A stretch of 64,000 bases of DNA, taken from Plumapathes pennacea (Eukaryota; Cnidaria; Anthozoa; Antipatharia; Myriopathidae). Below the pieces are notes generated by a model. The model did not search any database. It worked only from the letters and a program-made list of their open reading frames with translations, and was not told the DNA's origin. The stretch covers positions 19,847,670 through 19,911,669 of the forward strand of contig OZ038467.1 in NCBI GenBank assembly GCA_964036295.1, read 5' to 3'. Within the stretch, counting starts at the first letter, position 1. Every line of letters begins with the position of its first letter. This document shows positions 8,830 through 62,000 of the stretch, one piece after another. A program made the position numbers and the translations under genes.

Positions 8830-8837
8830 AGTATGGG

Positions 8838-8885
<48 letters not shown>

Positions 8886-14636: not shown

Positions 14637-14645
14637 AAAAAGAAA

Positions 14646-14784: not shown

Positions 14785-14789
14785 ATCCT

Positions 14790-16395: not shown

Positions 16396-16962
16396 TCTCC
16401 ACTGACTAGGGCTGGAGACTTTCCGGATTATCTGGACTCGGTTGGTTACGTAGACGTAAAATCTTCGACACTCGTTTTGGATGTAGCCAAGGACAACTTT
16501 CGAGTCTGTGTAGAAGATGACGTCGTTGATAACTATGTCGATTTCTCTCTGTATTCTGCCTGCAGCTAGCGCGGCCTTGACAGCGCCACAGAGTTCCAGG
16601 CGAGGAATACTGGTAGTCTGGGCTGTGCTACTTTAGACTGGCCAAATAAATGTGCTGTGCTGACTTCTCCCTTGTCGTTCACCAGTCGCAAGTAGACTGA
16701 GGCTCCGATTGCGTCTTTGCTTGCGTCCGAGAATGCATGAATCTCTGCCCGGGAAACTGTGCCGAAAATTGCTTGCGTCCGAGAATGCATGAATCTCTGC
16801 CCGGGAAACTGTGCCGAAACCTTCTGGGTGATAACAGCGGGGTACCGATATTCTCTCTAAGTCGGCTAGTGAACTCCGCCAACGGTGCCATTGTTGCCGT
16901 AGAGCATCCGGGAGAGGATTGTCCCACCCTAGGGGGGTGTTGTTATTCTTGTTCTTCCCCAT
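16396..16962 (-). pseudogene. BEL/Pao RNase H-like region
   Basis: VSRAEIHAFSDASKDAIGA is the first RNase H motif. A direct duplication of about 52 bp at 16717-16822 repeats the HAFSDAS segment and shifts the frame. Further on, the plus-strand text at 16400-16560 translates on the minus strand to the remainder, ending in the GDIDT..NPADLATRG box, which is split by the MITE at 15961-16395. Confidence 0.7.
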
Positions 16963-17583
16963 GCGGACTAAATTGCTGTAACAGCAATCTTCCCTCTAGT
17001 AGTATAGGCACTGCCAAGCCGAGCGGGTCGTAGATGGAGTTCACGACGGACAGGACTCCTCTCCTGGTGAACGGTTGATCAGTTAGGGAAACTTTGAAGG
17101 TAAATGCGTCTCCCTCTAGATTCCAGTAGACGCCAAGTGACCGCTGGTCTGGCAGGCTGTCATGGCACAAGTCCAAATCGCGAACATCTTTTCCCCTGTC
17201 TTCTGTCGGAAAGGCTTCCATGACTTCTCTCGAGTTGGATACGATCTTGTGGAGTCTGAGGTTGGCTGTAGCCAGCATTGCTTGGGTGTTGGTCACGAGC
17301 TTGTCCGACTGTCGGAAGCGAGACTAGTCCGTCGTCGACGTAGAAATTGCGGTGGACGAAATCCGCGGCTTCTTTACCGAACTCCTCCTCGCCGTCAACT
17401 GATGTCTTCCTTAGGCCAAATGTAGCTACGGCTGGGCTTGGTCCGTTGCCAAACAGATGGACGTTCATTCTGTACTCCTCTATAGGCTTTCCGCGAGTGT
17501 TGTCCTTGAACCAGAGAAAGCGCAAGAAATCTCTGTGGTTGGAGTCGACGTAGAATGAATGGAACATCTGCTTGATGTCGCAC
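16943..17583 (-). pseudogene. BEL/Pao reverse transcriptase core
   Basis: Two overlapping frames on the minus strand carry the RT palm. One has MFHSFYVDSNHRDFLRFLWF, MNVHLFGNGPSPAVATFGL and the catalytic FYVDDGL. The other continues with SLTDQPFTRRGVLSVVNSIYDPLGL, the thumb and connection segment. A frameshift separates them. The polymerase YVDD box is intact, but the chain is not. Confidence 0.85.
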
Positions 17584-17631
17584 TACACAGCTACGTTTTC
17601 TCTGCGGAAACGGAGTAGTACGCCAGTCAGG

Positions 17632-19851
17632 CTATTCATGAGATCTGGGCCAGCCAACAGCTCCTTGTTCAGGGAGCGCTTGAGACTCTTCAGGCGGAAC
17701 TGGAGAGGTGTGGCCCTTGCTGATAACCTTCTCCATGAACTCTACGTAGTCCTTTTCCATCTGAGGCTTCTTGCGTAGAGTGCGTAGTAGCCCGTTTAGG
17801 CGGTAAGCCGCCTGGCTCCTGTTGTTTGGCATACTAGGATTCTCGTGGCGAAAGGGAAGCGGCATTTCCCAGTTGCCTAGGACTAACTCGATCTTATCGA
17901 CCGCCAGAAGACTGGTGCGACGGGCCCGCACGTGTGCCGGGCCATCGACGAGGTCTAGACACATCTGTCCTGTTATGGTCCAGCCGAGGGACAGTCGTTG
18001 GGCCCGGGGAGCTCCTCTAGGCCCGTTGATGAACTCTCTGACCTTGAGCAGCTCCGGTGCGTCTCGGCCGGTCAAGATGTGGACGTCAGCAACGTTGTCG
18101 AAGGGCGGAATCTTGCTGGCGATCTGCTGCAGGTGGGGGAATCTCCCCGCCATGTCCGGTGTAGGGATTTCGCGCTTATCCCGCGGAATGTTGTCATATT
18201 CGACCAGTGCTGGCAACGCTGATGTAGCTCCGCTGACGGATCGCACTTTTAGGCCTGTCACGCGACGTCCGTACTTCACTTCTCTGTCGCAGCTGCACGT
18301 GGAGAGGTAGTACTTTTCCGGTGGGCTGTTCACTCCGAGCTCGTCTGCGAGTTCACTGCTGATCAAGGAACTGTTGCTTTGTTCGTCGATAATGGCGTAC
18401 ACGCGATGTGTCTGGTCTGGATTATCGGTGTTGAACACGTCGACCAACAATATCTTCCCGCAGGATAATCCTCCCTCCTTTGCACTGCTGCATACTGCAG
18501 TGCAACTAGAGTTCACGTTCGTCCCTTTGTCTGTTTTTTTTCTTTGTGTAGCAGCGCGATGTGGCGCTTGTCTCCGCAGATACTTCACTGTATTTGTTGC
18601 GTACACTTGTTCGACACGTGTCCTGTCTTTCAGAGACTTTGCCTGGAAGACTTTGCGCTCTGCTAAGCCGTGTCCATCCCGTTCGTGGAACAAGCAGCGT
18701 TTTGTTTTGTTTTCTTCTGGCTTCGGGTCTGGCACACTAGCGACGGGCTGAGTGCTGGTCTTTAGCGCTCTCTTGTTGAGTCTGCGGGGCGTGGATCCTG
18801 TGGTGACAGTGGCGTGGGGTGGCCTGCTTCCTGCCAGAACGTTCGGGTTGGTTTTTATCCTGTTGTGATCTTGAATGACCTTAGAGAATATCTCGAAACT
18901 TGGGTACATGCCCTCGTTCTTGTCCGTGTGTTCTGCTATCTTCTTTTCCCATTTCCGGCGGAGAGAAGACGGGAGTTTTTCAGCGATCGGCTGGATAGCG
19001 TTTGGATAATTGAGGCACGCGAGTCCCGGAAGTTGCGTGACTTGATTCTCGACGTCGGCGCACAGGCCTGCAAAGTGTTGCAGTTTCCCGTTGTCGTTAT
19101 CGGCAAATGTTGCGGTCTGCTGCATGCGGTCAAGAAGGGCATTGGTAGTGACTGCCGCGCTTCCGAAACGTCTCTCTAACTCCAACCACAGGCTGGCTAA
19201 CAACTCGACGGGGTTATGTTGCTGTCGTTTCCTGAAATTATCGACAACCCGTTGAACCTCCCCACTTGTGAAACTTCTCAAATAATTAATTTCCCGGATA
19301 GGAGATACGTCGGCGTCTTTAATCATCGCCTTAAAGGCCGCTTTCCATGGATGAAAGAGCGTGGCGTCTTCGGTAAAAATGTCTGGTTGACATTTCGGAA
19401 GGTTTTGCCGAGCTAGACCTGCCACTATTTGCTGGTTCGCAGCTTGGAAGCTTTCAATAAACCGACTTTCGGAAATGTTTCCTTTTGGGGTCGAGGCGAC
19501 AAAGGGGCGTTGACTAAAAACGCGCTGAGTGACGTCATTATTACTTGCCTTTGTGTCCCGTGTTTCAGGAAATTGCGGGGGCGGCGCTTCTTGTTCGGGC
19601 AAGTTCTGAGGCATTTTGTTCGCGGGTGAGGGGTCAAAGGTGGGTGTGGTGTGAACCCACTGATGAACTCGCTCTCCTGGCTTAGCGTTTGGGACTCCCG
19701 GCAATTCATGATTTTCTCCGATTTCGTCATCGATCATGGCTTGCTCGATTGCCTTCAGCTTCGCGTCGGCTACTGCGACTTTTTTCTTTGCCGAAAGAAC
19801 TGCCAATTCTTTTTCGAACTGCGCCTTTTCCTGTTCGCGGCTTTGCTCCAT
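17632..19851 (-). pseudogene. BEL/Pao gag-protease-RT start
   Basis: This is a long frame of 739 codons. The N-terminal quarter is a charged coiled coil. The middle carries the gag segment (FHPWKAAFKAMI, INYLRSFTSGEVQRVV, LWLELERRFG) of the DUF1759 type. The next part has a weak zinc-knuckle remnant, then the aspartic protease with YAIIDEQSNSSLI in place of the usual DSG/DTG triad, and RLSLGWTITG. The C-terminal end has the DNNRSQA-like box that leads into the RT. The frame is lost after RSHE; the RT continues in other frames downstream. Confidence 0.85.
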
Positions 19852-20042
19852 TTCCGCCTCACGTTTTCTCCGTTCGTGTTCTCTTTCGGCGATTAAGCGT
19901 TCGTATTCTGAGCTTTCGCGCGCTGCTGCGGCTTCTGCGAGAGCTTTTATCCTGGCACTGCTAGCGTATCACATGTAATATACTAATCGGGGACACTTTT
20001 AAGAAAATATATGAATTAAATTAGGATTAAACTATACTAATT

Positions 20043-37670: not shown

Positions 37671-38430
37671 CGAGGGAATTTTTTCGAAGTTTGAGCAGTT
37701 TAAGAGTCCCAAAATTTGCAAACTGTCATCAAACTGCTTTCTTAGATGTTTCGTTTAGCAGAAATTGCAAGAACTGGACTTTCGCATCGCACGCTGTGGC
37801 GGCGTGACAACTTGTTATGAGTCCATTCGAGTAAATTTGAAGCATTTTTCGGACTGATGCAACTAAAAACCATACTATTACAAGCGTTAGTGAATACAAA
37901 AAGGCGGTGTTTCAGTGTGATTGTTGTAGCTTAATAAAACGGTCAAGTTAACTATACGGCGGCTTTTCATATAGACACAACGCCGGGCGGAATCACACAA
38001 CAGTCGGCATGTCAAATCAACGTAATTGTATTTATTCAAAATAGTGGCACTGTATACGATCTATGAATTTCACTTTACATTAAAACCCATGCATTTACTA
38101 GATCCTTCAATAATCTGATAGAATCAAAAAGTTCATGTTGATTTTGCAGTAGTTTGTGTGCTACTGACTTCGTAAATTTCCGAGTTCTGAAGTGTGTTAA
38201 AATTAATAATGATCTTACCACGTTCCAAAATTTACTTCTCGGCTGAATCTTTTCTTGAATTCGGCTTCTTCTTCGACCGTGACTTGCTCGACGTACGCCG
38301 CTAGTTCTTCGATGTTTTAATAGAATTGAAATGTTTTGACAGAATCGAAAAGTTCATGTTGATTTTGCAGTAATTTGAGCGCTACCGTCTTCGTAAATTT
38401 CCGAGTTCTCAAGCGACATTAATAATGGTC

Positions 38431-38613
38431 TTACCACGTTCCAAAATTTACTTCTCGGCTGAATCTTTTCTTGAATTCGGCTTCTTGTTCTTCTTCGACT
38501 GTGACTTGCTCGACGCACACCGCTAGTTCTTCTTCCGTGGCAGCTGCTTCAAAGACTGTCGTCGTCGTACGCAAACGTACTGCCTTCAACACTTGAATGT
38601 ACATGTCAAACAT
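38431..38613 (-). CDS. Acidic exon of the Kolobok-like element, unknown function
   Basis: The minus-strand frame reads TEEELAVCVEQVTVEEEQEAEFKKRF in two parts and SREVNFGTW before a GTAAGA donor. A second copy of the same exon lies at about 38220-38320. In copy 1 it is found at 26386-26486 and again at 28165-28258. Upstream, a short frame starts MSSSETELSLIISSNSS at 38692. It probably belongs to an accessory protein of the transposon family; the function is unknown. Confidence 0.4.
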   Translation of the reverse strand: MFDMYIQVLKAVRLRTTTTVFEAAATEEELAVCVEQVTVEEEQEAEFKKRFSREVNFGTW

Positions 38614-40456
38614 CTAATAATGACTCGTGAGTCGATAAAATAGAAGAATTCGAAGAAATTATCAATGAAAGTTCGGTCTCACTCGAAGACATTTGCAAAG
38701 AAATGTGTGTGAAGTCCGCGTCTCGTTGGTAAGATGACGTCAGAGTGGTAAACCGCTGGCCCGAAATATTTATTCACGGCCAACATGGCGGACAAGCGTT
38801 TTAGCCTCCTTTGAATTAATATATCTCGGGAGTCTTACATCTGAAAAAAAAGTTTTTGGGACATTTTGCTATTCATACCATACACTTTCATTTAAAGTGG
38901 TTAAAATAGTATTTCAAAGTGGTCCGATTTTGGTCAAAGTACCCCTTTAAAGTATCGGTTTATTACTACTTAATCAAATGCTTATTCACCTACATATCAT
39001 TCTAAAGGACAACGTTTCGCCTTGCTAAAGTGAGACGCTTTTCGCGATATATATGCAAATTTTTAACGTTTGTTTACATGCAGAAAACTGATATTAGATC
39101 AGTTTTTTTTTTTCAACAACGAAAGACAGAGTTACCAGAGGTGTCACAGTTTTGATAGAAAGTACCTAAAAGAAATATATTTGTGTTTTTCAATCCTCGC
39201 GATAACCGACTTGTGGGCGAGAGAAACGTCATTTGCGTGAAATCGAGCAATTTTGATGACGTTTTTAGAAGAAACGCTCACAGACCCCAAAAACGAAAGT
39301 CGATAGTTTAAAAGATCAACATTCAAACTAACCACAACCAAAATTTTATGGTATTTGAAGTCCCCGCGCATGGTGAAAACCCGCTTCATATTAGACATAA
39401 ATTATGACAATGAAATGTGACTGAAATATGACCTCCGTTATTAATTTACCAATAGTTCACAGATAATGGTATTCATTGAATAATCTTCTCAGAAGAAAGC
39501 TAAAGACCTATTTAACAAATAAACAACCAGTACAGAGCCCTTGGTACATTTCTTTGTGAGAACGAGAGTGATTTTCTTGACCTTTGAAAATCGTTGTTTC
39601 CCCTGAGAATCGGCCGAATTACGTTTTGCAAATTTTCTCCCAAAGGAGGTGAAATCTGGACAAACTAAGTACATCACGTTTTCTTACTTACTAATGCCTA
39701 CAACTGACCAAAGTATGAGCGATTTCGATTTTTTGACTTTGGCCGCTCTTTCTTTGATTTTTACAGACATTTGCTCTTAAATGTTAAAGCTTATCCACTA
39801 GATAGCGACTTATCTGTTGAATAGCGCTATCCGCTCTTTGAACAACCGGGCCCTGATATTCAGCAATTACGAAATGATGCGGAAAATACTGCCAATGTGT
39901 TATGCGCGACTGCCGTTAACAGTCCACAATGACCTTCCTTGGCATTTTATTAAATCGGCATCATTTACTCCTTTAACCTGAATACGATGACCTTTGTGTG
40001 GTGCAATTCACGAATCGAACATAAACACCCCCGTTATCACCTCTTTAATGGACTTTTGACAGGTGCGACGGACTCTTGAACTGTCTAGTACCAGAGACCT
40101 TTTCTCATAAACTAGAAACTATAAGCTAGAAACTCAGTTGATCCTAGCCTGCGTAGCAAGCGTTAGAGCTGCTGGGACTTTTTCGATTTATGGCTGCGCG
40201 AGAATTGTGGCGAGCCCAAAAATGTAGTTGAGGGGGGAGGGGAGAGGAGAAAAAGGAACTTTTTTCCCGCTGCCCTTCCGCTGGTAGAACAATCGAGGAC
40301 TGTACCAGTCCTGTTTATTGACAGCTTAGTTTCTTTGTCTCTTTTACAGTCTAATTCACAATCGCCTCGTGCAAATTCTTAGATAACACTTAGCTCCCAA
40401 TACAGATGTACAGTTGTCACCACTCTACTTAGGTAATATTTCCATTTCCATTTGAC

Positions 40457-40457
40457 T

Positions 40458-40512
<55 letters not shown>
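40457..40512. repeat. (ATT)n microsatellite
   Basis: About 18 units of ATT, followed by GCAACTAGCAACTAGC. This parallels GCTAGTTGCTAGTTGC at 33630 on the other side of the foldback element. Confidence 0.97.
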
Positions 40513-40903
40513 CGCAACTAGCAACTAGCATAAAACCTTTGCTGTCGATGAGTCAACGAAATTTCGCCCACAAGAACGACATTTCGATTTTAGCGGTGCG
40601 AAAATTTGCCGAAATTTCGTTTCTTTCAAAATTTCGCACTTTTTCGCAATTTCGTCAAATTTGAGCGAGACGTAAACGTGTGACCAAAATGTGTAGTGAA
40701 AACGGTTTGAGGATCCCTTTGAAGATTTGTGATTTCGCTTTCAGTTCGGCCTTTTTTATTTTGATGTAGAAAATATATCGTTGACACAAAGTCAATCGGG
40801 TAACATCGATACATGTATGTACCAGTACATTCCAGGACACATGTCCTGTTGTATGTTGTGTCGTTTACAATACCCGCTTATATATGTCTCTTTCTTGTTT
40901 CAG

Positions 40904-43900
40904 CAAGTTCTGGGATTCTGACGGCGGCATTAAAATAAAGGATGCCTTCCTTTACGGATATTGTGGAGCGCACAACTCTAAACTGGATTAGTTTCTGTAC
41001 TGTGCTCATAGTAGCTGTAGTTGGAAGTATTTGTGGAGGGGTATTTACAGGCATAAGATATCTCAAAGAGTCGCGAGATTTTCACTGCTACATATCATTT
41101 GAAAAGCCTACAAGAGAGGAATCTGTTGAGGATTACTGCTACCGGAAATATAGTCGCGAGCATAACAAAGAATTTCCTCTGGCAGTTTATGTGGTACTCT
41201 TATTAGATGTGCCAGTGGGAGTCGTGACTGTGGTGTACGCAAGCTATGTATATTCTCGAGTTGTCGGTAAATGCATGGATGGAACACATAGGCTCAGAGT
41301 TTTTTCAGCGTACATGGTCCAGCTTGTTGTCAGGTCTGTCATCCTGGGTGTTTTTCTTTGTTTGCAATGGTCGGTGTTTTCCTCGGTCGTCTTTCCAGCT
41401 GATTCTACTTGCAAAACAACAGCATCAACTGAACAGCCTGGGTCACAAAACTTAACTACAGGTGTGGCAAATGCAAGTACTTCAGCACCTTGGCGGATCT
41501 ACAACTGTAAAAACCCACACGCAAGGACAAAATCTGTATTAGCCTGGGTACTGTTTTCAACAAGTTTATTGGCTTTTGCTTCATCGGTTTGGGAGACGGG
41601 GCAGCTTATCTGCCGTTGTAAGGATCCAGATTTCCGTGAAGACAAAAAGTTTTGCACTGACTATCTTGACATAAAATTCGATAACACGCCAGGTTCGATA
41701 GGTAGGTATCCCTTGGTTCATAAAAGAAACCCTATAGCAATGGGCTTCCCTAGAACAATGTTGCCTCGTAAGGGGAGAGAAGACAATCCTGATACGATTT
41801 GGGGGTAATAGTGCTGTCAAAGACCAAACTTTTGTCATCGTCGTAAATTTTGTGGCGCATTATAGTTTCCTACAGTATTTCAGTGGAAATACTGTATGAT
41901 AAGCAAACGTTACATTTAAAGCTTTTATTCATCTTTGTTTTGCAGATGATGGTGTTGAATTACAATCAGTTTCAGGTAAACACGCACTCTGTGTACCGGG
42001 TATTTGCTTGTTAGTAAAAGTTGTTTCTGTTTTAAATACCCTGAACCTCCATGTCACTTTATCAGTACATTATGATTGTACATTACTACCATAAAATCAA
42101 ATCTGTTGTAGTTATAGTTTTAGCGATGGGACCTTTACATCAGGTTGGTCACATGATTAAAATCCACGACGTGACTCTCAGTTCATAAGCAACATCATAA
42201 TTTTTGGATACTTGTGCTATAAGCTCATCTTGTTGCTTTGCCGACCTTCGATAAAACGCCAGATGCGAATGGTAGGTATCCCTTTATTCATAAAGGAAAC
42301 TCTATAGCAATAGGCTTCCCTAGAACAATGTTGCCTCGCAAAGGGAGAGAAGACAATCCTGATACGCTTTGGGGGTATTAGTACTATGAAAGACCAAACT
42401 TTCATCATCGTCGTAAATTTTGTGGTGCATTATAGTTTCCTACAATATTTCATTGGAAGTACTGTATGATAAGCAAACGTTACATTTAAGGTTTTTATTC
42501 ATCTTTGTTTTGCAGTTGATGGTTCTAGTGACATTGAATCACGTACAGATTCAGAATTATCGTCAGCTACAGGTAAACACGTACTCTGTGTACTGGGTAT
42601 TTGTTTGTTAGTAAAAGTTGTTTATGTTTTAAATACCCTGAACTTCCGTGACACTATATCAGTACATTATGATTGAACATTACTATCATCAAATCAAATC
42701 TGTTGTAGTTATAGTTTTAGCGATGGGACCTTTACATCAGGTTGGTCACATGATCAAAATCCACGACGTGACTTTCAGTTCATAAGCAACATCATAATTT
42801 TTGGATACTTGTGCTATAAGCTCATCTTGTTGTTTTGCCGACCTTCGATAAAACGCCAGATGCGAATGGTAGGTATCCCTTTATTCATAAAGGAAACTCT
42901 ATAGCAACAGGCTCCCCTAGAACAATGTTGCCTCGTAAAGGGAGAGAACACAATCCTGATACGCTTTGGGGGTATTAGTACTATAAAAGACCAAACTGTC
43001 ATCATTGTCGTAAATTTTGTGGCGCATTATAGTTTCCTACAGTACCTCAATGGAAGTACTGTATGATAAGCAAACGTTACATTTAAGGTTTTTATTCATC
43101 TTTGTTTTGCAGATGATGGTCCTAGTGACATTGAATCACCTACAGATTCAGAATTACCGTCAGCTACAGGTAAACATGCACTCTGTGTACTAGGTATTTG
43201 CTTGTTAGTAAAAGTTGTTTATGCTTGTGATCACTAGCTTCAACAATGAGCCTTCTATCCTGAAGTTTAGTGTTTAAAGTCCCTCCTTTTTCCCAAAATC
43301 ATACAAGCGGCGGAGTGAACACAGACCTTGCTTCACCGCTTGGTTGTAATTTGTCCTTGTGTTATTTAAATGTAGTGATGCGGCTATTATTTAAGGTTTC
43401 TATTCATCTTTGTTTTGCAGATAATGGAACTACAAACACTAGATTACGTAAAGGTAATGTCCACAACGTGACTCTCAGTTCATAAGCAACATAATTTTTG
43501 GATACTTGTGCTATAAGCTCATCTTGTTGTCTTGCCGACCTTCGATAAAACGCCAGATGCGAACGGTACGTATCCCTTTATTCATAAAGGAAACTCTATA
43601 GCAATGGGCTTCCCTAGAACAATCCTGATACGCTTTGGGGGGTACTTTTTCGGACCGTTGCACTCTATTTCAGACCAAAGACACAAAATGCTTGAATATG
43701 ATACCCTTTGGAGCGGTACATACCTATATGGCTTATATATGTCTTGGAGTACTTTGCACATTTTCACTGCATTCTTGCAGGCGGCAGGTTGGACCCTCGC
43801 CGCCGGTCGCACAGTGCAGGACTGTATTTTTCAACTTGCTTTAATGACGATCTCCGGCCCTGTTACACTTAATTGCTTCGCTCCCTAACTATATTCTTTT

Positions 43901-44916
43901 ATTCAATAGAAAAACGCACCCCTCCCGCTATCGTATTAAAATGGGCCTGTATTTATATTCAAAGTCTGAGTAGTTTTACTTTTGCTATACGTACGCTAGT
44001 GCTTAGTAATTTCATTGAATGTATATTTCCTCCACTGTAGTTTTACAGTACTTTTACTGCGTAAACACCTTCCGTTGGTTTACAATTGTACATATTCCAA
44101 GATCTTTAATATATAGCTAAACGTATGGTACTTATTCCTTAGTTAGGCGCGCAAACATTTAGTTCTTGCATGTTGTAGTAGGGTATATACTTGGCTTAGA
44201 GAAACATATTCGAATTCTTGAAGTACTATGCGATTTGTCTTGGAGAAAATGTTTCTTTTGAGTATCTCTGTTAGGCGACCTATAATCCCGTGCAAACTGG
44301 TCTAGAAACACACGTATCATTTTTGCATAAAAGTATCTCTCTTTATGAACCTTCGCAGCACCTTATCACAGTCTTCTTTTTTTCCACAGTCACACTTGAG
44401 CATCTGCGTGAACGAAGCCAAGAAAAAATGGACGACAGGGTGATGTGTGGGGAATGGTTTTTCAAAGAAATCAATGATATGGGCATGAGAACATTTGATT
44501 GTCCAGTGTCTAGTACGCGCCTCAGGTACGTCTGCAAGATCGAAAACAAGTTCACCGGTGAGTCCACCGTTGTCCAGCCAGCGCAGTTTGATCTGTTTAA
44601 CGATATGGCGGGGCTTCTAAAGTTTGTCTATCATCTAATCAGCAAGAAGCTCCGGGGGAAATACAGGGGTGTGTCGCCAGACCAACTGTACAGGTTTGAG
44701 ATTAGAAGAGAAATGAAATTGGTGGCAGAAAGCCAGTTGGTACAGCAGTACGTGAGGTTTAACAAGGGCAATAACAACTGGGAGGTTCAAGTGTCCTTTG
44801 AGAGCGACCCAGAACTTCAGGAAGAACGCTATTATTACCTACGCATTAAAAGTTCCCGCTGCATACAAGATGGCGTACCGGGACCGATTACCTTTCGTGT
44901 GATTGAGTGGACTTGA
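40904..44916 (+). CDS. Four-transmembrane connexin-like protein with modular linker (gene model)
   Basis: Model: exon 40904-41701 (acceptor TTTCTTGTTTCAG; ATG at 40942), then 41946-41975, 42516-42572, 43113-43169, 43421-43453 and 44390-44916. All junctions are GT-AG and all are phase 1, giving about 487 aa. Exon 1 encodes four hydrophobic segments (about residues 15-37, 81-105, 123-152, 197-217), two Cys in loop 1 (49, 66), two in loop 2 (157, 189), and NLT/NAS glycosylation sites in loop 2. A Pro lies in TM2 (91), and TM3 reads VILGVFLCLQWSVFSSVVFP. This order and these positions recall connexins, but with two Cys per loop as in innexins and pannexins. The family is not proven. The micro-exons make an acidic, Ser-rich cytoplasmic linker. 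If the first intron is retained, a 288-aa form ends at 41808. Confidence 0.7.
41946..41975 (+). CDS. Micro-exon 1 of the four-TM gene (30 nt)
   Basis: The tract CATCTTTGTTTTGCAG precedes and GTAAAC follows. Phase 1 at both ends; it encodes DDGVELQSVS. It can be skipped without changing the frame. Confidence 0.65.
42516..42572 (+). CDS. Micro-exon 2 of the four-TM gene (57 nt)
   Basis: Same acceptor tract and GTAAAC donor as micro-exon 1; phase 1 at both ends. It encodes DGSSDIESRTDSELSSAT. Confidence 0.65.
43113..43169 (+). CDS. Micro-exon 3 of the four-TM gene (57 nt)
   Basis: A duplicate of micro-exon 2 with a few replacements (DGPSDIESPTDSELPSAT) and the same splice sites. The arginine and two serines of exon 2 are changed to proline here. 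Confidence 0.65.
43421..43453 (+). CDS. Micro-exon 4 of the four-TM gene (33 nt)
   Basis: Same TTTGTTTTGCAG acceptor, GTAATG donor, phase 1 at both ends. It encodes NGTTNTRLRK, a basic end before the C-terminal domain. Confidence 0.55.
44390..44916 (+). CDS. C-terminal domain exon of the four-TM gene, unrecognised fold
   Basis: The tract TCTTCTTTTTTTCCACAG precedes it. The frame enters as TLEHLRERSQEKMDDRVMCG and ends FRVIEWT with TGA at 44914. The domain of about 150 residues alternates hydrophobic residues as in beta strands (RLRYVCKIENK, NWEVQVSFES, RYYYLRIKSS), with one helical stretch (DMAGLLKFVYHLISKKLRG). No known motif was found. It could also be read as an independent gene, since ATG codons lie inside (44428), but its phase fits the upstream micro-exons exactly. 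Confidence 0.65.
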
Positions 44917-45179
44917 TTGATGACTTGAGGTTGTGAGAAGCTTATTGTTGTGTTGTGTTATTTTAGTTGGGAAACTCGGTAGAAACGACTTAGTGTGATG
45001 GCTTGCCAATATTTAACAAAGGTTGACAAAGCCGGATCTTTGACAGATCAACATCCTGGGCAAAAGATTTGGGACAATCCCCCGTCCCCCGGGGTGGGGG
45101 GGACTCCAATACGTGAGCCATATAGGTATATACCGCCCCAAAGGGTATCTTATTCAACGTTTTTAATCTGAAATAAGGT

Positions 45180-45345
45180 ATCAGTTTTGAGCCTTTGGTC
45201 TAGAATAGGGTTGGAGATTTTGTTATTTGGTCTGAAATAGGGTCAAAAATCGCACATTTTGATCTGAAAACGGTAAAAAAATGCACATTTTGGTCTGAAA
45301 TAGGGTCGAAAATCGCTAATTTTGGTCTGAAATAGGGCAAGGGTT
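45180..45345. repeat. Tandem repeat (GGTCTGAAATAGGG, about 35-bp unit)
   Basis: Four to five degenerate copies of TTTTGGTCTGAAATAGGGTC with AAAATCGCA spacers. It ends exactly where homology to the window start begins (45347). Confidence 0.85.
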
Positions 45346-45794
45346 TTCAGTCCCGCGCGGCACACTCCCACCTAAAACTTTGAGGAGTGCCCCTCCCGGG
45401 GGGGGGGGGGGGGCGACAACCGTTCGAGCGGTACCTAAATCACATATACCAAGTTTATTAATTACTCTCTCCATGCACATCAACGTCGATCAAGATTGAT
45501 ATTTGACCATACAAACAGAGTGTGCCTTGATTTCCCACTTTTCAAACGTTAGAAGGGTGGAGTGAAAAATTTGACTACTTTCTAAGAGGATCAGTACAGC
45601 CCAACATTTTTGTCCAGGATTGTTGTTGAATAGGATGCACGAAAGCTTATTTCACTAATGTGTGAACAAAAACAAATAAACAGATACTGTAGGTGAAACT
45701 CGGAACTGTGGACCACAACGCCTTGACAGTTTTATGTGAAGTGAAAGAGAAGCTCAAACCTGACGAAAATTTACATGTTTAAGGCGAGTCGCGT

Positions 45795-46118
45795 ACGCCA
45801 AGGCTGTGCGGTATTACGAACTGTGGCTCAACACTGCAAAACAAAGTGGAGACAAAGAAGGCGATGGAGTAGCTTATGGTGGGCTTGGGAAGAGTCATTA
45901 CTCCTCGGGCAGTACGACAAGGCTGTACAGTGTATTACTAATTGAAGCTCAATATTGAAAACCAATTGGAGACAAAGCAGGCGAAGGAGTAGTTTAGGGT
46001 GGGTTTTGGAACTGTCATCACACCCTCGGGCAGTACGGCAGGGCTGTACAGTTTTACGAACTGTGGCTCAACACCGCAAAACAAATTGGAGACATCATCA
46101 CAGTGAGTACAAAAGGAA
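45795..46118 (+). pseudogene. TPR-repeat gene fragment (decayed), copy B
   Basis: This is the duplicate of the fragment at 451-772, with the same frame breaks. The lesions therefore predate the segmental duplication. One small deletion near 45902 (CTCCTCGGG instead of CTCACTCGGG) is private to this copy. Confidence 0.6.
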
Positions 46119-46373
46119 TAAAGACAGACAGTTTTGAATTTGTACCTTGGTATAAAATAGTTTATTACACGACTTCACATTTTCGAGTGCAAATACGGGC
46201 CAAAACGAGTGCAAAGATGGGAGCGTATTACACTCGTCAGGAACCAGATCAACTGGTTTATTAGCTTACGTGATCAGTTTTCGCAAGCAAAGTTTACGAA
46301 CGCGTCATTTTTTGTTCCATTTTGCGCGCGGCGAGAATGTTTGCCCTGCTTCGTTTGTCGTGTAATAAACAAT

Positions 46374-46510
46374 TTATTACACGGGAAGGAGTGCAATACG
46401 GCTGTATTTTTACTCGTCAGTTTTATTTGTTCTCGCCTGAAGCAGGCTCGAAAAAATAAAACCGACTCGTAAAAATACTCCGCCGTATTGCACTCCTTCC
46501 CGTGTAATAA
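46374..46510. mobile_element. Palindromic MITE, copy B
   Basis: Duplicate of the element at 1031-1167. It was carried along by the segmental duplication. Confidence 0.75.
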
Positions 46511-49500
46511 CCTCTTTGTATATTGAGTACTGGTAAATAGTAGGTACTAGTATCAAGGTACTGACTATCTGGAATAATCTTAGGGCTAATCAAACCAGAT
46601 ATCCATACAGCATGTTAATCATTTCTAGTTTGGTCAAACAGTATGGACAGGATTACAAGTATGGTCTGAATAACTTCAGACCAATGTGTGCGTGCATGTT
46701 ACACATTTGTATGCGCACACACACCCGGCACACAGACATGCACACACGGATATCTGTCAACATTATTATTATTAAATAACCAGTAACCAACAAGATTATC
46801 TGATTTCAAGTTTTGTTTGAATGCAGATTTCCTGAGAGATTTGTATTTTCCTTTTATGGAGTTCCACACTTTTATTACCTGGAATCGTATACTAAGTTTT
46901 CCATAGTTTGTTCTTGCAGCAGGACGGTAAAAGTTTTTTTTAGAGGCCAATCTAGTATTGTAATCATGTATTTTGTTTATTTCAATAAATAACTGTGAAA
47001 AGGCTGGGGGAAGTTTGCAAGTGTAGTAGCCATACATAAAAAGTGCATTATGGAGGAAAATTAGGTCCAAAAGTTTAATGATTACTGAATACAATAGCTT
47101 GCCTCAAAGCATTCTGGTGGTTGAAGTCAAATGTCATTATGCAAATGTACTATTAATAATGAATCTTTGATCGATCTCTGGCGGTAAGAGCGATCCGTAT
47201 TAATATACAACAACACAACTCCTTCAAGCCCCTGTGCGTCTTTCTGCGTGCAACACACGTTGTTTCTGCCAAGATGCGCGTTATTGCCTCCTGAGATGAG
47301 GAGGTTTTGCCGGAAGAAGTAAATCTTTAGATTTTTTAAAGGCCCTAGATCAGTCACAACAACTGCTTCACAGTATTTAAGTGACAGTAAATGTGACAAA
47401 GAGTCGCAAAATTGTGGCCGTGGCTCGTGCAAGGAGAGAGATACATCGCCGAAGCGGCTCGTGATTTTGAACTTTTTCTCGTGTTCTCCCAACATCCCGC
47501 GTGTTGATATGAGTACAAAGACATGGAAAACTCGTGTTATATTTAAGAAATATAACACGCGCGTCGTGTTTACATAGCCTGATGCAAACACGAGAAGGAG
47601 TTTGGGAGAATGAGAAAGTTTGTGTAAACCCGAGCCGCCGCGGCGAGGGTTTACACAAACTTTCGAAGTAAGCGTTTTATATTTCTTTTATAAAATAAAC
47701 GGCAGCAGTACTACTGCAAAAACGACCGTTTTACGTGATTATCAAAGTCGAGATTCTCAACACACAAACTGAAACCAATCACAGATTGTTGTTTAACGTG
47801 CCGAGCGGACGAGACAAGTTTTCAAATCTTTAAATTCGGAACTTAAGAATGCTGGAGAAATGAATAATCAAGAAGTCTTTCCATCAATGACTCTTAAACT
47901 GAATTTCCCTCGGCTCGGTTGGCGCTTCTGTAGTATGGGAAGTTTTATCGTGACGTAATTCCGCTCGTTCGCGTCGCCTGGCCGTCAAACGTGTCGCGGC
48001 GGCTAAGGGTTTTCTCTTAATTGAAGGTTGAACAGTTGTTCAAAAAACTGATATTTCCTGGGATAATTCGGGACAAATAGGAATAGAGAACATGTGCATT
48101 ACTTTTAGATGCAAAATAGAGGCACGGATACGTTAAAGGAAGAGAAGATGACATTTCACAGATCTCCAAACTCTCACAACACAAGAGAAGATCAAAGCAC
48201 AGGTTTTTCTTACTAGGGGGAACCACCAGGACAAATCTGGCTCAAATGGCCCCAGAACCCGCACAGTTAGGCAGGAGACACAGATAAACCAGATCAGTGT
48301 GTTCAAGTCTCATTTTATTAGTAAACATTCTTGTTCGATCGAGTGAAATCCCCATACATTTTCTTATAACCGCCATTATGTTGCGCCCGCGAATTATCAG
48401 CGGAATCACCCCCAACGCCTGTGATCAAAGAAGCCTGGCACGGCCGCGAGCGCTGAGAAGACAAGACTCAAAAGTCGGAAAAATATAGGTTCCCGGAGAT
48501 GAACATGCCTGAGGCTGCAGTAAACTCTGCATAGAAGTACGACTATCCAATTGCCGTCGACGATTTTTGCAAACAATTCGCCTTGCAGCGTACACAAGGA
48601 ATTTAAGAAATTTATCGATGCCGGGCGCTCTGTCAAGTTTCATGAAAACTTGCGAATTTCAAGAATTGCAAGCCAGGAAAGACAACCCAAGCAGCCTGAC
48701 TACGGTCCGCCACCATTGACACGTAAGTTATAAACATTCACGAATCTGTACAGATCCGTTTGGGGAAGATAAAGGTAGAAAGAAAAGGCACTGTGCGAGT
48801 CGCAAATTGAATCACTTTGACGGCCAAAGGAAATGAAATGTACGCGCCATTTTTGACGTCATAAAAAGATTCCGTAAAACCTCCCATACATGACAGAGCT
48901 GTCTTAAACTTGCCGAGCAGCTAGTGAAGCTTCTTCTGTGCAGATTGAAGTGATGCAAGTGATCGATGTGAACTGCACTAAATGCCCGACTAAATGGAAA
49001 CAACGTTTGGGAAGCTGCTCTGCTACATTACTTCCTGCTGAAGAAACTGATTTTGGTATGGTACGAGTAGATGACCTTCAGTATCGGTGTAAGTAAACTG
49101 GGAAACCAAGTGTGGGGCTTCTAAACTTAAGGGGTGATAGAAATAGGTCAGATTTGGCAGGTAAAACACGTCAGAAAAATCCTTACCCTACCCCTCTTAG
49201 TCGATTTTTGTCCACTTTGTTTTCATTAAACTTTGCTGGTCCCCTGATGGCAAGGCGCAATTTTTGCGATCGTTTTAGGTAGGCTTCGAAGTTGAGCGAT
49301 GCAGGCTATATATAATTCCTATATTCAGACTTTGAAAACTCCGCTTTGTTTTAAAGTCACCAGAACATGTTGTGTTAGGGGTGGCGAATGGTTCCTAGAA
49401 AATTGTGAGTCTCGGAAACTTTTGATCCGATCTCGAAATCTCGAAAGCCTTCGTGATGAATCACGAAATGTTTGTGCTTCGTTTATGTTTTCAGGATTTT

Positions 49501-50200
49501 CTAAAGACTCGGTCTCGGATTTTCAAACAAGGGTCTCGACGAGTCTCGGATTTTACCATTCGCCACCCCCTTTGCCTCGTGTCTTATGAATTGAACTTTT
49601 CCTTATAATTCCCACCTGGATCAAAATTATAAACTGCCTCTTTTCAATGACTCGCTTTTAAATGACCCTCGACTTGTATTGGTTCAAAACGGATGATTGA
49701 CACTTTCGTTTCTCCACAGGCAGCCCACAAGGTGTTACTAAGTCACGCCTGGTCGGTCAAGGTCTGATGACGTCACGGCCGATCGGTTAACAAGGATTTG
49801 TATGGGGAGATTTTCAAATCATATTTTATGCGTAAAAATAAAAAATCTTACTCCTGAAATTCGTCAGATAACATTAAGAGTCCTTATTTACCGCTTAAGG
49901 TGACTTTCGAGGCGATTTGGCGCCGATTTAGCGATTTTGTTTTTTGTGGTGATCGTGTAAGTACTTAAATTTGTGGGCTGCCTGTGGTTTCTCTATTTCT
50001 TGCATTGCCTGGAGTTTATGACTCAGAACTTTCAGATAATATGAACCAATCACCGTGTGCTGATTCTCGACCTAGAAAAGAAAAACACGAAGAAAAAAAA
50101 AAGAAAAAAGAGCGTGGCACCCAACGAGCTAAAATCAGCCTTGTTACCAGACTTCGGAAGTTGTCGTAATCGAGCAGTCCTGGGACAAGTAAAAACAAAT

Positions 50201-53200
50201 ATGGCGCCCATTTCGGTTTGAGGACTTGGCGGAGGAATTTGTACAAGTCTTTACAGGTTTTAAGGTAATTGGTATAACTAGTTGAACATCGAAATATTTC
50301 CTGTAGGCCATTGAAGTATTTTGTTTGCTCTTTTAGAAAGGGTCAAAGAATTTCCATCTATCTGTGCAGTATGCATTGTCAAATTTCAGGTTCGTAATTA
50401 CACGTGGTTAAATTTGTTTTAAGTATGGTTTGGGTGTTGTTCTTAGAACATGCATCTTGCTACAAACCTGCAGATACCACTGATTCCTGGATGTAGACAG
50501 CAATAAAGTGGAAAGGGCGATCGATGGGTAGGTTGAAAATGTTTGCTAATAGTTTAACAGCACTAATTCTGAAGTTTATCATTAGCAAACAGTCTCAGGA
50601 TGTTCGAGGATAACAGTTTGTATCAATTCTAGCGGTGGATGGTACAAAACAAACGCCAAACTGCTAAAAGACTTGAGTCTTGTTCTGTGACTGAGGGGGT
50701 TAGTCACGACTGGTGTTGGTCAGTGGCAATCATTCCACTGAAGCCTGGTTCATTCTCATGCATTCAGGCCCTATAAATTGTATGATTTTTCTTGAAGCCA
50801 TTGACCGGCCATACGTTGCCCAATGTTTTGGTTGCCCTTGTATTTTTTTTGGTTATCGGGGACACTGGACAACCATTTACTTCAAACCCTGCACACATAT
50901 AGCATAATTTGTCTGGAAAAGAGAAAGCTTAGATGTTAACAAATCCTTATCTAATTTATGCTGACAGTATTTGCCAGAAGATTGAAGTGCACTCACAGGG
51001 TGAATACTGTAGGCAAGAAGTCTGAGAAGTTTGTGTGGAAGATTTTTAGATTCTCCTTTAAGTGACTTCACTGAATCTCCAAAGGTAAGCACCAGCAAAA
51101 TCCTAAAGCCTTGGCCAAAATGGACTACCAAGTCAAGCCAACTCAAGCTGTAGTAATGTGATTGTGATTTTGTTATATTTCAGTTGGATACTCACCATTC
51201 CTTGTTGTTATTGCTGCTGAATTTATCTGGCTGACCAACAAATGTGAACTATCAACCCAAACCCCTTGAACAAGATTCAGGTATTGTACATGATTAATTT
51301 AGTAATTAATATCTATATTTATGACCCATCAAATATTTCCTCTCGCACGTGATTGGTAGAATTGTGACACGTGACCGAATAATGTCTGCTTGTGAGCGGA
51401 CGTTATCAGCGAATAACCCCCGCCTGGCGAACTAACGCTGTTTATTGACAATATCCGAACACAGTTTTATACATTTAATTCACAAAAATCATTGCAAGAC
51501 GACTACTGAGAAGGACATCAATTTATTGGTTGAAAAAGCAGTTCCAGAAAGCACTAAAAAGCTTCACAGTTTCCGCACCGTTATTTGCGCTGCGAGAGGA
51601 GATATTTGAAGGATAATAAAGACAATAAACTACTTTTGAAATATTCACAAATAAGAAATATGCACAAATAATTGTCCTTGGACATTATCTGTTCCTCGAA
51701 GCTCACAGTTGCCCTCGAGCTTTGCTCTTGGGCAACTGTTCACTTCGCAGAACAGATAATATCCTCGGACAATTATCTGTGCATATTTCCTCGCTAAAAG
51801 TAGTTTATTGTTTATATATCCAGGGTTACCAGACTTTCTCTTTGGGCTGATAAATCATTGTTTTTCTGACAAACTTGCCCAGAAGAAAGGTGTTAGTGTC
51901 ACTGTCATGGCTACAGTTTACCCTTCAGCCACATTGTACATGCCAAAACCTGGGTTTCATTATGTCCTGATTTCTTTTACTGGTATCTCAAACTGATACA
52001 GATTAAAAGCTATTGTGCATGTATGATTCAATGGTTTTCATTCTAAAGAACCATCAACTTCAGTTTTCTCCTTTTGATTCTAACCAGAGATAAATACTGT
52101 ACATGTCTCATTCAGTGTGGAGAACTTGGCTTTTTATTTTTGTTATGAAGGCTGGTTCTCCTTCCAATTCTCTTTGCATCCACTCATGTACATTTTCTTC
52201 TCAAATGGTTGGGAGAATTAATATTTATTTGAATTCAGAAATGGTTTTAGGTGTGAGGTTGTAAAATCCCTGAACCTTTAGGCCTGTTAGATGATTTATC
52301 CGAAATTTTCTGAATTAATTTGGTACCATACAATAGACAAACCTCAGTCTATAAGGATGATTGGGTGAGTTAAACTTGACAATCAATCATCCATGTACTG
52401 TACTGTACAAAACTTGTATTTTATATTTTGTTTGCACAGTTGATAATGATAAACACATTTTGGAATCTCAAACCTTTTTCTCCCAAGAGTTTCAAGTTTC
52501 CCTCTTCAGCTTCTTACCATAAATATGTTACAGTAAGGAAAACTTGGCTTTTGGTAGCATGCTGGTAGAAAGCTGATTAAATTATCAGTTCTCACTATAT
52601 CACTCATACACTTTCTACTTAAAAGGTTTGGAGAATCTGAGTCCATATATTTTTCCTCAGGATTGGTCAGAGGAAGAGGTACGTACATTAGATCCGTCTG
52701 TATGCATGCAACCAAGGCCACTAGCCCAGGATACCTGACTTTCCAGTCATTTTAGCAGATTTTCCTAGCAATATTATTTAATTGCTCAGAAGAAAACACT
52801 ATCTGGGCTAGTACGTCAATACAGCTATAGCTTGCCCTTTGAAAAGAAAATATACTTCTAAACATTAATGGGAAGTTAATTTAAAATTCACTACCTTTAC
52901 TTGAAGCCCTTAACTTTATTTATAGTGGCTATTTTACATTATAATAATAATATTGTATCTTACTGACAAGTTGATTTTTGGGACCTTGACAACCAGGCTT
53001 TACTATAAGGTCTTCACATACAACATGGTGTAGTTTAGAGTTTTAAAATCATTCATTTTTGGTTTTGCATTATTTTCTTTTCTCATTTACTTGCATCAGG
53101 AAGAGGAAGAGCTTGAAACAGCAAGTGATTCAGGCATTAGTATGGGACAACAACAACAACAACAGCAACAACAGTTCCGTGGTCTTGGCAGAGTGGAGTA

Positions 53201-53237
53201 TGGACAAGAGTGCAGCAATAAAGAAAGGACATTTCTG
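50201..53237 (+). pseudogene. TUBGCP5: GCP5 5' exons, broken, copy B
   Basis: This is the duplicate of 5584-8949. It shares the extra T after the first six codons, the TGA at 50481 and the three stops in exon 50968-51084. The 303-bp deletion removes nearly all of the exon that reads MDKEFDWRAYLLDG in copy A, leaving only its last nine bases (GATGATTGG) before the donor. In contrast to copy A, the donor after DWSEEE (52661-52678, then GTACGT) is intact. The final exon 53100-53237 carries only 9 glutamines. Neither copy can encode a normal N-terminus. Confidence 0.8.
51319..51819. mobile_element. MITE, same family as 1407-1883 (copy B)
   Basis: Duplicate of the element at 6703-7203, with only a few substitutions. 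Confidence 0.8.
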
Positions 53238-54604
53238 GTACAGTATGCCATACCATTGATGTTTCCTCTTTTTTACATATTTAATGCAAATGTTCAAAGC
53301 TCATGTTTGGATCGCTAGTGTCACTTGCTCCGATGAAGGGCTAGTGCTTGAAACGTCAGCTTCCATTTCCTTTACATCTAGGTGTCACACATTAATTGAT
53401 TCATTATTTTTAACTTAGAAATTAATTGACTTCATGCCTGACACATATGTAAAACATTCTCTTTTTAAGCTCGCCCCACGAAGTGGGGGTGAGCTTAAAG
53501 TTGTCACGGTGTGCTTCCAGGCTTCTGTGTCAACAATGGACTTCCAAATAAGGAATTTCCAAAGAAGGAGCTTGTCAATTTCCAAATTTGGGCACGGTCG
53601 TGTTACGCAGTACGTTCAAACAGAAGACGTCGAAGCTTCGTGTGGAAGTTGTTTCTGGAATTTATTCTTGTTTGTCATGGTTGTCAAGCATTCGAAGTTT
53701 GTTTGGCCATTGAGCCTGGGTGTTTGTACGAATGTAGGGCACTGCTACAGTGACACTGAAATTACGTGGCCATTGTGCTGTGATTACGAAAATATACCAC
53801 GATTGATCGACACTAAAAGATAGTGACTAAAAGAACACACGAGTGACCACAAATGACCACGAGTGACCACGAATGACCACGAATGACCACGAGTGACCAC
53901 GAATGACTACGAGTCAAATAAGCTCCTCACGTAACTGTAACGTCATTTTATTGTCATTTTAAATTTAAAACGCAATATCATGCACCCATGATAAAGTGTA
54001 AAAATTTCACCAGTGTCATTTTAAAAAACAAACACTTGGAAGAAAACGCCGACCACAAGGCGTAAAGTACACACAAATATGTCCCTTGCGTGACGAATCA
54101 CGTGTCAACGTCGGCTGTAGACAATGTGACACAGCGTGCTGTATTTAACTCAAACTCGTGACCCTACCGAACAGATTTGGCTCTTTTAATTAAGTCGTGG
54201 GAATTGCTCACTAAATTCACATGGCGTGGGAACCTATATATGATTGGCTGATCGCAGAGATAAGGCTGCTGAGATGTCAAAAAAATTTGCATTTCTGGTC
54301 CTCTTGCCATGGAAGTCCGGATAAAAAAACCGAAAGATTTTACTCCGAAAAAGTACGACCAAAGTAAGACAACGAAAAGACCTAACACTGGAGTGAAGGA
54401 CGTGGAGGTTATTACTATCGGCGACGTGGAAAGTAAATAGAGAACCGACGGAAGAACAGAATTTCAGTAGAGAGCTTAAGCAGCAGACGTTTTTGATATC
54501 ACGGACGTCAAAATACCGAGGAAGACTGGATCGACAGCGGCGTTTTTGGCGCGAAATTTTTAAATAACTTTGTTCAGTCATTGTTCCCGACTTTATTTTG
54601 CAAC

Positions 54605-58780: not shown

Positions 58781-59053
58781 GTACTGTAAATATATGTACA
58801 TCCATTTATGTGTCCCCTGTGCGTTTCCCCAAAGAATGCGTCAGCGTGTTATGTTGAGTTATAGAAGCACGCAGGAATTTAAGAAAACACAAGAGCAGTG
58901 TGGAGAAGCACGAACTCCGCAAAAAAAAAAACCGGAAGAAAAATATTCAAGTTTGATGAGTCAAATTGACACGCGCGTGCTACAGTACGTGTATGTTGAG
59001 TTATAATGCACATGGCATTTGTCAGCATTTACCAATCAGATCTCGCGTACTAT

Positions 59054-62000
59054 TCACATTTTCTTTTTCTGCCAGAGGGCTCTCTTGACAGCTTGATCTC
59101 TGTTGTTGGGCATAGTCACGTTGGAGTTTCGAAAGGGAAGAGGGATCTCATGTTGACCTTCGATTTTCTTGATGCCGCTCTCTACTTTTCGCAGAAATGC
59201 TTGATCCTCCTGTGAGTACCCGCGGTTTTCGGGGCTTTTGCTGGGGGTGTGATCGTTGAAGTCTAATTCAAGCATCGTTAACAGAGCCTTGGGCGTTACG
59301 ATTTCTTTGATGGTTTCGACCTCTCTCACAGTGATCCGGTTTGCTGTGAGGACATTGTTGTCCGGTTTGTAGCTGACTCGCAGAGGACCGCTTATGGTTC
59401 AACTGTGCCTGAGGCGAACAGCAAAAGGGCCCTCACCTTGCCTGGGCACCTCTTCCAAAGGCTCTAGTGCAGCAGGGCAATTACTGCCGATCAACAGGCC
59501 AATCTCCAAGTCCGGCCTAAGCTCCGAGATTTCTTTGGATACTTGGCGGAGATGCTCCCAGTGACTGATCATCTCGGGCGTTGGAATTTGCTGGTGGCTA
59601 ACTGGAATTTCGTCCCTTGTGAAGGTCTGTGGCAATTCGATGGAATTGTGATCATTTAGATCTGTCACAATAAGCCCGCTCAGGGCGGTACTGTCCACGT
59701 AGCTTTGTCCATGCATGGTGCCCAGCTGCAGTCTTGTTCTGATACCGTCTGCTCCTAACTGGCTTTTGATGGTTTCGGAAGCAGAACAACCTCCGCTACC
59801 ACCGTCGTAGAAGGCGTATGTTGTTACCATCCGGTTGGTGCCTTTTTGTTTCACTTTGACTGGGACTATTGCATGAAGCACGATATTTTCTTCAACACCA
59901 GCGTGGTTGCAAGAGTTCTGTGTATCAACGAAACCGTTATACACCCTGGTGGCTTTTTGGCTGGCTCCGGCTTCGTCACTTTCGCTTTCTTGGTTAATTT
60001 GAACCCGTCTATGTGGAGCGCTGTGGGGTGTCGCTTGCTGCATTTCCGACATGTCCTCTTCTTCGTGCATCCTTTAGAAATGTGGTTGCTTCCATAGCAG
60101 GCGAAACACATTCTGTTGTCTTTGAGGAATGCTTTCTTGTCTTCAACAGTTTTCTTAGCGAAGTTCTCGCAGTCATCTAGGTCGTGGGATTTGCTGATCG
60201 GCTCAAAACTGAGGGCTTGGATCTGGGTGATGCGTCGACATGCGTGGCAAAGCTGGTGATTTCAGTTTGACTTTGATAAACGGTTTGCTGCTCTATGTGT
60301 GGCTGAATCTTGGCCTCTCTTCTGCACCATGTAGGCATTCTTTTCGAAGATTGGGTCGTTTGCGGACTCGGCGGCAGACTCAACAAAATCGACGAGATCT
60401 TCGAAGTCGGCTATCTTCTGGTTCCTGGTCCTCTTCTTGGTGACCAGGTCACACCATTTGTTCTGTAGGTGTGAAGGAAGCTTTTGAAAGATTATCTGCA
60501 TATTTGGGGAGTGATTGAGTACTGTCATATACGGTATGTTCTTCATGGCGTTCTTGCACTTGGTTAGGAAGAAGGAGAAACGCCTTAAGGCTGCTACATC
60601 GTTCTTCACTGGTATCCAGCTCAGAGCTTTATCGTTAACGAAGGCTATAGATATCTTATACGGGTCTCCGTACTCCTTCTCCAGCAGTCTTCTTGTTTCT
60701 TAGTAGCCTTCTTCCGGATCTAGGTGCAGACATCCCCCGATTAGTTCCTTAGCTTCGCCTTGAACGTGTTGTTCCAGGTAGTACAGCCTGTCAGCGTTGC
60801 TGGTGGTCCTGGATTCGATGCGCACGGTAAAAGCCATAATAAAGGTCTTGTAGTCGATAGAATCTCCTTTAAATATGGGGACCTCAGGCTGTGGTAGGCT
60901 CATTGCCGCGGTCAGCTGTGGGGTTGCTATTACTTGCTGGTTCTGCTGTTGCTGCATGAGTACTATAGCTTCAATTGTTTGCTCGTTCAGAACAGCAATT
61001 GAGGACTTCGTCCCGACTGTCCTTTGGCGCATCGATAGCTTTGGTACTATTGCGTGAGCTTGACTCCTGGTTTTGGAGTCAGTCGGGTTGAACAGCGGGG
61101 TTGAGTGCAGAAGCAGCAGCGGTTGGTGGGCGTGGGAAATCGTGATGGTCACACATTGATTAGTTCGAGCCAAAGTTGCTGTGAGCAGGAACGGCTGGTG
61201 GTGGTAAAGTCATGCCTGGAGGTAGATAAGGCGACAAAAAAGGTAACTTGCATGGATCGGCCGACGGGGGTAGCAACACGTTATTGTCAGCGTTTTGTCT
61301 GGCTTGATCTTCGTCGATTTCCACGTATGTCTTTTCCCTCACTTGAGCCTTGGCGATTTCCAGTTCCAACTTTAATTCCTGTTCTGCTGCAAAGAGTGCC
61401 TGGGTTTTCTTTAGCTTAGCCTTTTCAGCTAACAGCTCGGCGACTTTGGTTTTCTCTTTAGCCCTAGCAGAAACTGTAGATGATGCTTTGGATCTACTGG
61501 ATGCTTTGGATCTTTGGACGTTTTGGATGCTCTAGATCCAACATCGGAAAGACAATTTGTTCAATTTGTTCCGATAGGCGGTGCTAAATTTGCGTAATCC
61601 AGCCAGCGACTTGTTCCCTGAACTCGAGGAAAGACTTCTCCTTGGCGTTGTCTCAGACTGTCTTGTTCTTCCTCAGAGTTAAGCTCGTCATAGTGAAGAC
61701 TATATGCGTGTTGGAATTGCTCAAATAAAGTGTTCACATTACCAAGCTCCGTTTTCACTAAGTGCAAATTTGCATCTTCGGCCATGAGCCTGGTTAGTTC
61801 ATTTCTCTTTCGCGTGACCGCTGACAGCGCGGCCGTCTGGTTTCCTTTCAGGCGACGAAAGTTTTCTTCTCGGCCTTTTTCGGTTAGAGTTCGTTGACAA
61901 GTTCCGACGTTTTCTGTCTGTTCTCGTTCATTGTTCTGTCTCGCCGCTGGTGGCTTCAGACATGTCACGAAAGTCACGCGGAAAGTTCCAGCAATTGTTG

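Follow-up and report, generated by a model that had tools for sequence, protein, structure and literature searches.

The 64,000-nucleotide stretch of DNA analysed here (contig OZ038467.1, positions 19,847,670 to 19,911,669; hereafter the window) carries, at 40904-44916 on the plus strand, a gene that, from sequence comparison, we regard as close to certain to encode a divergent homologue of connexins. Its product, 487 residues as modelled, has a domain with four transmembrane (TM) segments, which a linker from repeated mini-exons joins to a C-terminal domain of 175 residues. Eight relatives have the connexin-like domain and a NACHT domain in one uninterrupted open reading frame (ORF), a fusion observed directly in the DNA. 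Many copies of the domain are, by prediction, the N-terminal membrane part of NLR-type receptors with the order connexin-like domain, NACHT, winged helix/HD2 and leucine-rich repeats (LRRs). We give a probability of about 60% to the whole explanation, proposed mechanism included, in which the window protein is a connexin homologue, its domain forms the front end of NLRs in many relatives, and both kinds of protein are channel subunits. The NACHT linkage lay beyond the reach of the original prediction, which was made by a model from this stretch alone and had described a connexin-like four-TM protein fused to an unfamiliar C-terminal domain. That reading is supported by the family profile searches, which proved specific for connexins and not for innexins.

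A search of the 290,015,204-base assembly (24 contigs) with the window protein gave 29 matches at E <=0.001, five of which covered only the repeated tail of exon 1. The nearest relative was a tandem copy 46 kilobases (kb) upstream (89% identical), followed by a copy on contig C11 (55%) and by clusters on contigs C3 and C5; no relatives were found in viral and bacterial contig collections, and a search with a retroelement frame gave nothing either. Eighteen near-complete domains, the window copy first, were aligned as A1, excluding a near-duplicate in L017 as well as copies that were partial, frameshifted or insert-bearing (L024 and L030, for example). When the A1 profile was compared with PDB sequences, all 25 distinct chains matched at E <=10 were connexins (best E 1.8e-6), mostly aligned from TM1 or the first outer loop (E1) through TM4. 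The profile-profile comparison suggested in the original prediction likewise favoured connexins, as HHalign matched A1 to seven connexins with a probability of 97.6% (E 4.8e-12), whereas against two innexins and pannexin 1 it gave 0.16% (E 0.37) and thus no similarity to that group. The Pfam Connexin family (PF00029) matched 13 of the 18 A1 members at E <=1, with a best E of 4e-11.

A second connexin-like subfamily comprised five matches, including the query, in ORFs of 1197, 523, 1326, 1121 and 1189 residues, the last detected only at E 3e-4. The loci of the subfamily are C1:26198107, C1:21936697, C3:12311104, C4:10548844 and C2:36867156; NACHT was confirmed at the two C1 loci only, and the remaining loci are known as long open frames. 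Two members, L048 and L047, share with A1 both outer cysteines (C49 and C189), the Tyr and Arg of TM3 and the Glu of TM4. In addition, L047 carries the sequence NEKTAF, whose EKTAF stretch is close to the connexin EKT[IV]F. With these two included in a nine-sequence alignment (A5), 34 of 37 PDB matches were connexins (best E 5.9e-11), and the HHalign probability for connexins was 98.6% (E 1.5e-15).

Eight columns are invariant in A1: M1, E43, C49, Y124, L128, R131, C189 and E218. Five of them (E43, C49, Y124, C189 and E218) align with columns that are invariant in the seven connexins, the corresponding residues of Cx26 being E47, C53, Y136, C180 and E209, and R131 aligns with a connexin column that is R or K. 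By hydropathy, the window protein follows the connexin plan of four TM segments and two outer loops, and the TM2 proline, the LQW of TM3 and the two cysteines per loop were all present as originally described. The parts of the domain are as follows.

40978..41061, plus strand: TM1, residues 13-40, by hydropathy
41062..41169, plus strand: loop E1 with E43, F47, C49 and C66, by hydropathy and alignment; E43 and C49 invariant in 18 of 18 domains
41170..41256, plus strand: TM2 with Pro91, residues ~77-105, by hydropathy
41296..41397, plus strand: TM3 with invariant Y124 and R131 and the LQW motif (141-143), residues ~119-152, by hydropathy and alignments
41398..41526, plus strand: second outer loop (E2) with C157, C189 and N-glycosylation sequons at N170 and N177, by hydropathy and sequon count
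41527..41601, plus strand: TM4, residues ~196-220, ending near invariant E218, by hydropathy and alignment

The genome as a whole yielded 16 matches to the Pfam Connexin family, five of them above the curated cut-off, with a best score of 43.2 bits; Cx23, a divergent vertebrate connexin, scores 107 bits. The same search found no canonical connexin in the genome, and a search for the innexin family was also negative; in each case a control search was empty too. Pfam matches at E <=10 for the window protein included no CALHM, LRRC8, claudin or tetraspanin family, and one of the 18 A1 domains weakly matched Tetraspanin (E 0.36).

The loop cysteines follow a regular pattern. Every A1 domain has C49 and C189. 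For C66 and C157, a search that allowed a displacement of a few columns found the two together in 15 of the 18 domains and neither in three, with no domain having just one. In the connexin disulfide scheme, the first E1 cysteine is bonded to the third E2 cysteine, and the third E1 cysteine to the first of E2. By this scheme, C66 and C157 are presumably partners. Extra loop cysteines are rare: L029 has one in each loop, and of the two L015 copies one has an extra cysteine in E1 and the other has one in E2. The only aligned relative with three cysteines in each outer loop is L029 (1702-2385), and their spacing is unlike that of connexins. Connexin disulfides are described as linking the two outer loops (PMC4729916). 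According to the same source, Cx23 (GJE1) lacks the second cysteine of each loop, the middle one, as does the window protein, so two cysteines per loop need not be innexin-like. With its four loop cysteines, Cx23 has been reported to form hemichannels (PMC3920103). E2 sequons for N-glycosylation were found in 16 of the 18 A1 domains, at 0 to 4 per domain.

The link to NLRs was examined in the relatives. In the long frames of L019, L020, L021, L022 and L025, Pfam matched both Connexin and NACHT at E <=0.001. L018 has NACHT and LRRs; Connexin was not listed there at E <=0.001, and the domain scored 18.5 bits in the genome-wide Connexin search vs 332 bits with the family's own hidden Markov model. 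Both Connexin and NACHT are also present in L047 and L048 of the second subfamily, and in L025 (37.8 bits) and L047 (33.2) the Connexin score exceeds the cut-off set by Pfam. In six of these eight relatives (L018, L019, L020, L022, L025 and L048) NACHT is followed by LRRs, and the frames of L021 and L047 stop without them. HD2 and winged-helix matches were obtained in five of six frames of the set L018-L022 and L025. A separate scan found ten ORFs with both the four-TM and the NACHT part, fragments included, and among the seven ORFs checked, Walker A was present in six and Walker B in all.

In four further copies, the four-TM part lies in an exon of its own with a Pfam-confirmed NACHT frame downstream on the same strand, and the two may be joined; the distances are ~9.5 kb (L026/L033), 2.9 kb (L027/L034), 2.2 kb (L028/L035) and 5.3 kb (L031/L042). 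Thus, six of the 18 A1 domains have NACHT in the same ORF and four have a same-strand neighbour. No NACHT-like frame of at least 40 residues is present in the window, and the window gene has neither NACHT nor LRRs. Since L031, its closest relative outside the tandem pair, has a NACHT neighbour, the NACHT-less condition of the window gene may be derived. However, L029, which comes next in the tree with weaker support, likewise shows no NACHT.

The window gene itself was modelled from sequence as six coding exons separated by five GT-AG introns, all of phase 1, in agreement with the six-exon model first proposed. A stop at 40936-40938 lies in frame just ahead of the exon 1 ATG at 40942. The exon 1 frame, which would end at 41808 if read through unspliced, measures 289 codons from stop to stop, vs a maximum of 173 in 200 mononucleotide shuffles of window positions 38000-48000. 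Its parts are listed below.

40904..40941, plus strand: 5' untranslated stretch, behind a likely 3' splice site at 40903/40904 (pyrimidine-rich tract and CAG at 40901-40903)
40942..41701, plus strand: coding exon 1, whole four-TM connexin-like domain, residues 1-253, by family and connexin alignments
41946..41975, plus strand: coding exon 2, linker, phase-1 GT-AG
42516..42572, plus strand: coding exon 3, linker, inside a tandem repeat, by splice model
43113..43169, plus strand: coding exon 4, linker, inside a tandem repeat, by splice model
43421..43453, plus strand: coding exon 5, linker, by splice model
44390..44916, plus strand: coding exon 6, C-terminal domain (P0002), with relatives on contigs C4 and C2 of the same genome

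The linker encoded by the four mini-exons is rich in Ser and Asp, and its region consists of tandem repeats of ~570-600 bases (41677-42629 and 42247-43226 are 90.6% identical). The repeats in 41677-43226 copied the end of exon 1 together with one linker mini-exon, so that the linker became longer and the frame was kept.

A tandem duplication of ~45 kb per unit is visible in the window, where positions 1-9183 largely repeat 45347-53466. Long aligned pieces of the duplicated stretches are 91-99% identical, and the upstream unit holds the second gene copy, just outside the window. Both ends of the gene are retained in this copy: a stretch of 1174 bases that includes the last exon is 97.2% identical, and exon 1 with its flanks is 91.0% identical. 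The predicted joining of exon 1 to exon 6 agrees with the retention of both ends.

Relatives of the C-terminal domain were found in the tandem copy (95%), at three places near C4:824-828 kb (one partial) and once on contig C2. The three aligned copies from C4 and C2 share a CPCG...C...C pattern, part of which the window copy has lost; we take the pattern to resemble a small zinc site. The copies that carry it lie in L045 (C4:823500-833400) and L046 (C2:29406500-29416400). The best Pfam match of the domain was to an unrelated family (E 0.15) and nothing in PDB was better than E 0.085.

Directly 3' of the gene, at 45764-46137, are fragments of repeats of the tetratricopeptide type, of a kind common in corals. 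These repeats, the failure to find a canonical connexin in the genome (in a search whose control was empty) and the published anthozoan clade of membrane NLRs point to a cnidarian, probably an anthozoan, as the source; a sponge is a less likely alternative. Rfam and tRNA scans gave no matches, and a genome search for the GFP family was negative, as was its control. Long minus-strand frames at 14000-20000 and 59000-62000 resemble retroelement polyproteins.

Our best guess at a mechanism is an NLR-gated large-pore channel. The N and C termini of the protein would lie in the cytosol, and E1 and E2 would be stapled by two disulfides, C49-C189 and C66-C157. Subunits may then form a ring like that of connexins, making a wide (hemi)channel of non-junctional type; we favour that type because E2 is long and bears N-glycosylation sequons. 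In the NLR members, ligand-driven oligomerisation of NACHT would assemble or open the ring, and the ions or ATP let out would act as an alarm signal. For the window protein, we envisage a channel subunit that its own C-terminal domain gates or tethers and that might mix with NLR members.

Several observations weigh against this explanation. The window protein lacks the middle cysteine of each loop, having two where connexins have three, and it has NPHARTKS in place of an SRPTEKT-type motif before TM4. Taken singly, it gave mixed results in connexin tests. It scored 19.1 bits with the Pfam Connexin model, below the cut-off of 31.3, and its gene is not among the 16 genome-wide matches. A single-sequence AlphaFold model was too poor for a judgement of the fold (mean pLDDT 48.8). 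The paired loss of C66 and C157 may be one event, because the three domains concerned form one clade in a FastTree tree. Moreover, eight of the 18 A1 domains (the window gene, L032, L023, L029, one in L016, one in L017 and two in L015) showed no NACHT frame in the stretches examined.

It is possible, though on balance unlikely, that the domain is homologous to connexins and is no longer a channel, serving as a membrane anchor and oligomerisation aid while signalling runs through other partners. The missing middle cysteines and SRPTEKT motif fit such an anchor, as does the existence of truncated or frameshifted copies of the domain in the genome. On the other hand, the residues that are kept (E43, the TM3 Tyr and Arg, the TM4 Glu and the outer cysteines) are conserved in channel-forming connexins, and the hemichannels reported for Cx23 are made with four loop cysteines (PMC3920103).

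Less probable still is that the window copy, as a duplicate, is decaying or dispensable and has no function of its own. The duplication is recent, linker exons are repeated, and comparison of the window gene with its tandem copy gives a dN/dS of 2.1 in exon 1 (dS 0.026) and 2.3 in exon 6 (dS 0.009); these values near 2, which rest on very few changes, make decay of the window copy possible, and we count them too among the points against our explanation. Nevertheless, both copies retain open frames for exons 1 and 6, and the window gene has intact splice sites and the invariant residues. Its comparison with the C11 copy gave a dN/dS of 0.67. In a set of seven C3/C5-type paralogues, of which six are NACHT-linked, the nine pairs with more than 55% identity had values of 0.28-0.74 in the domain.

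We consider it highly improbable that the protein docks between cells as a genuine gap-junction protein, replacing innexins in this animal. Connexin homology and the failure to find an innexin, in a search whose control was empty too, would be in keeping with docking, and zebrafish Cx23, with four loop cysteines, reportedly makes both gap junctions and hemichannels (PMC3920103). Against it stand the NLR context and the E2 sequons, since loop glycans are said to hinder the formation of pannexin junctions (PMC8769644). Gap junctions are also reported as missing from anthozoans (PMC3882753); the same source describes Acropora digitifera as having no innexins. The four-TM family of convergent origin that the original prediction had offered as an alternative is very unlikely, and the least credible of all: single-sequence scores are weak, two of nine shuffled decoys match unrelated Pfam families at E <0.004 and two of 150 shuffles exceed the local HHalign score, but the family-level searches are connexin-specific over most of the domain.

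Among known systems, connexins, and Cx23 in particular, come closest, sharing the four TM segments, the E1 pattern [WY]xxExxxFxC...CY, the Y and R/K of TM3, the Glu of TM4 and the outer cysteines of both loops. The window protein differs from them in the absence of SRPTEKT, a longer E2 with sequons, a C-terminal domain of its own and a genome that is probably non-chordate, and its relatives differ in their fusion to NACHT(-LRR). Innexins and pannexins also have four TM segments and two cysteines per loop, but no sequence relation to them was detected. LRRC8 (VRAC) similarly places LRRs after a four-TM large-pore domain, but is pannexin-like and is not known to have a NACHT domain. In plant CC-NLR resistosomes, the N-terminal part of an NLR becomes a membrane channel, but it inserts on activation, whereas the domain described here has four TM segments of its own.

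By description, the relatives resemble anthozoan NACHT-LRR proteins with 3-5 N-terminal TM segments, which are reported to make up a single clade restricted to anthozoans (PMC5094078). That paper, which adds that sponge NLRs may have TM segments, never uses the words 'connexin', 'pore' or 'ion channel' in its main text. Similarly, 'connexin' is absent from the main texts of PMC8260672 and PMC10236652, the supplementary lists of NACHT domain combinations lying outside that scope. Within our search, from which preprints and most subscription journals fell out, no publication was found that calls the membrane part of NLRs connexin-like. Connexins have been reported as absent outside chordates, apart from one unconfirmed sea-urchin transcript, and described as arising de novo in chordates (PMC8769644); another source also places none outside chordates (PMC6391747).

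A broader proposal is that the connexin domain is older than chordates, that anthozoans possess an NLR with a built-in channel, a one-piece large-pore immune sensor like the plant resistosome, and that the window gene is a NACHT-free subunit of it; we hold this tentatively, at slightly less than an even chance. A connexin-homologous domain in a genome where a canonical connexin was not found reopens the question of a chordate-only origin of connexins and can serve as an outgroup. Should the domain prove to be a pore, the membrane NLRs of anthozoans would become candidate ligand-gated large-pore channels, directly linking pathogen sensing to membrane permeability.

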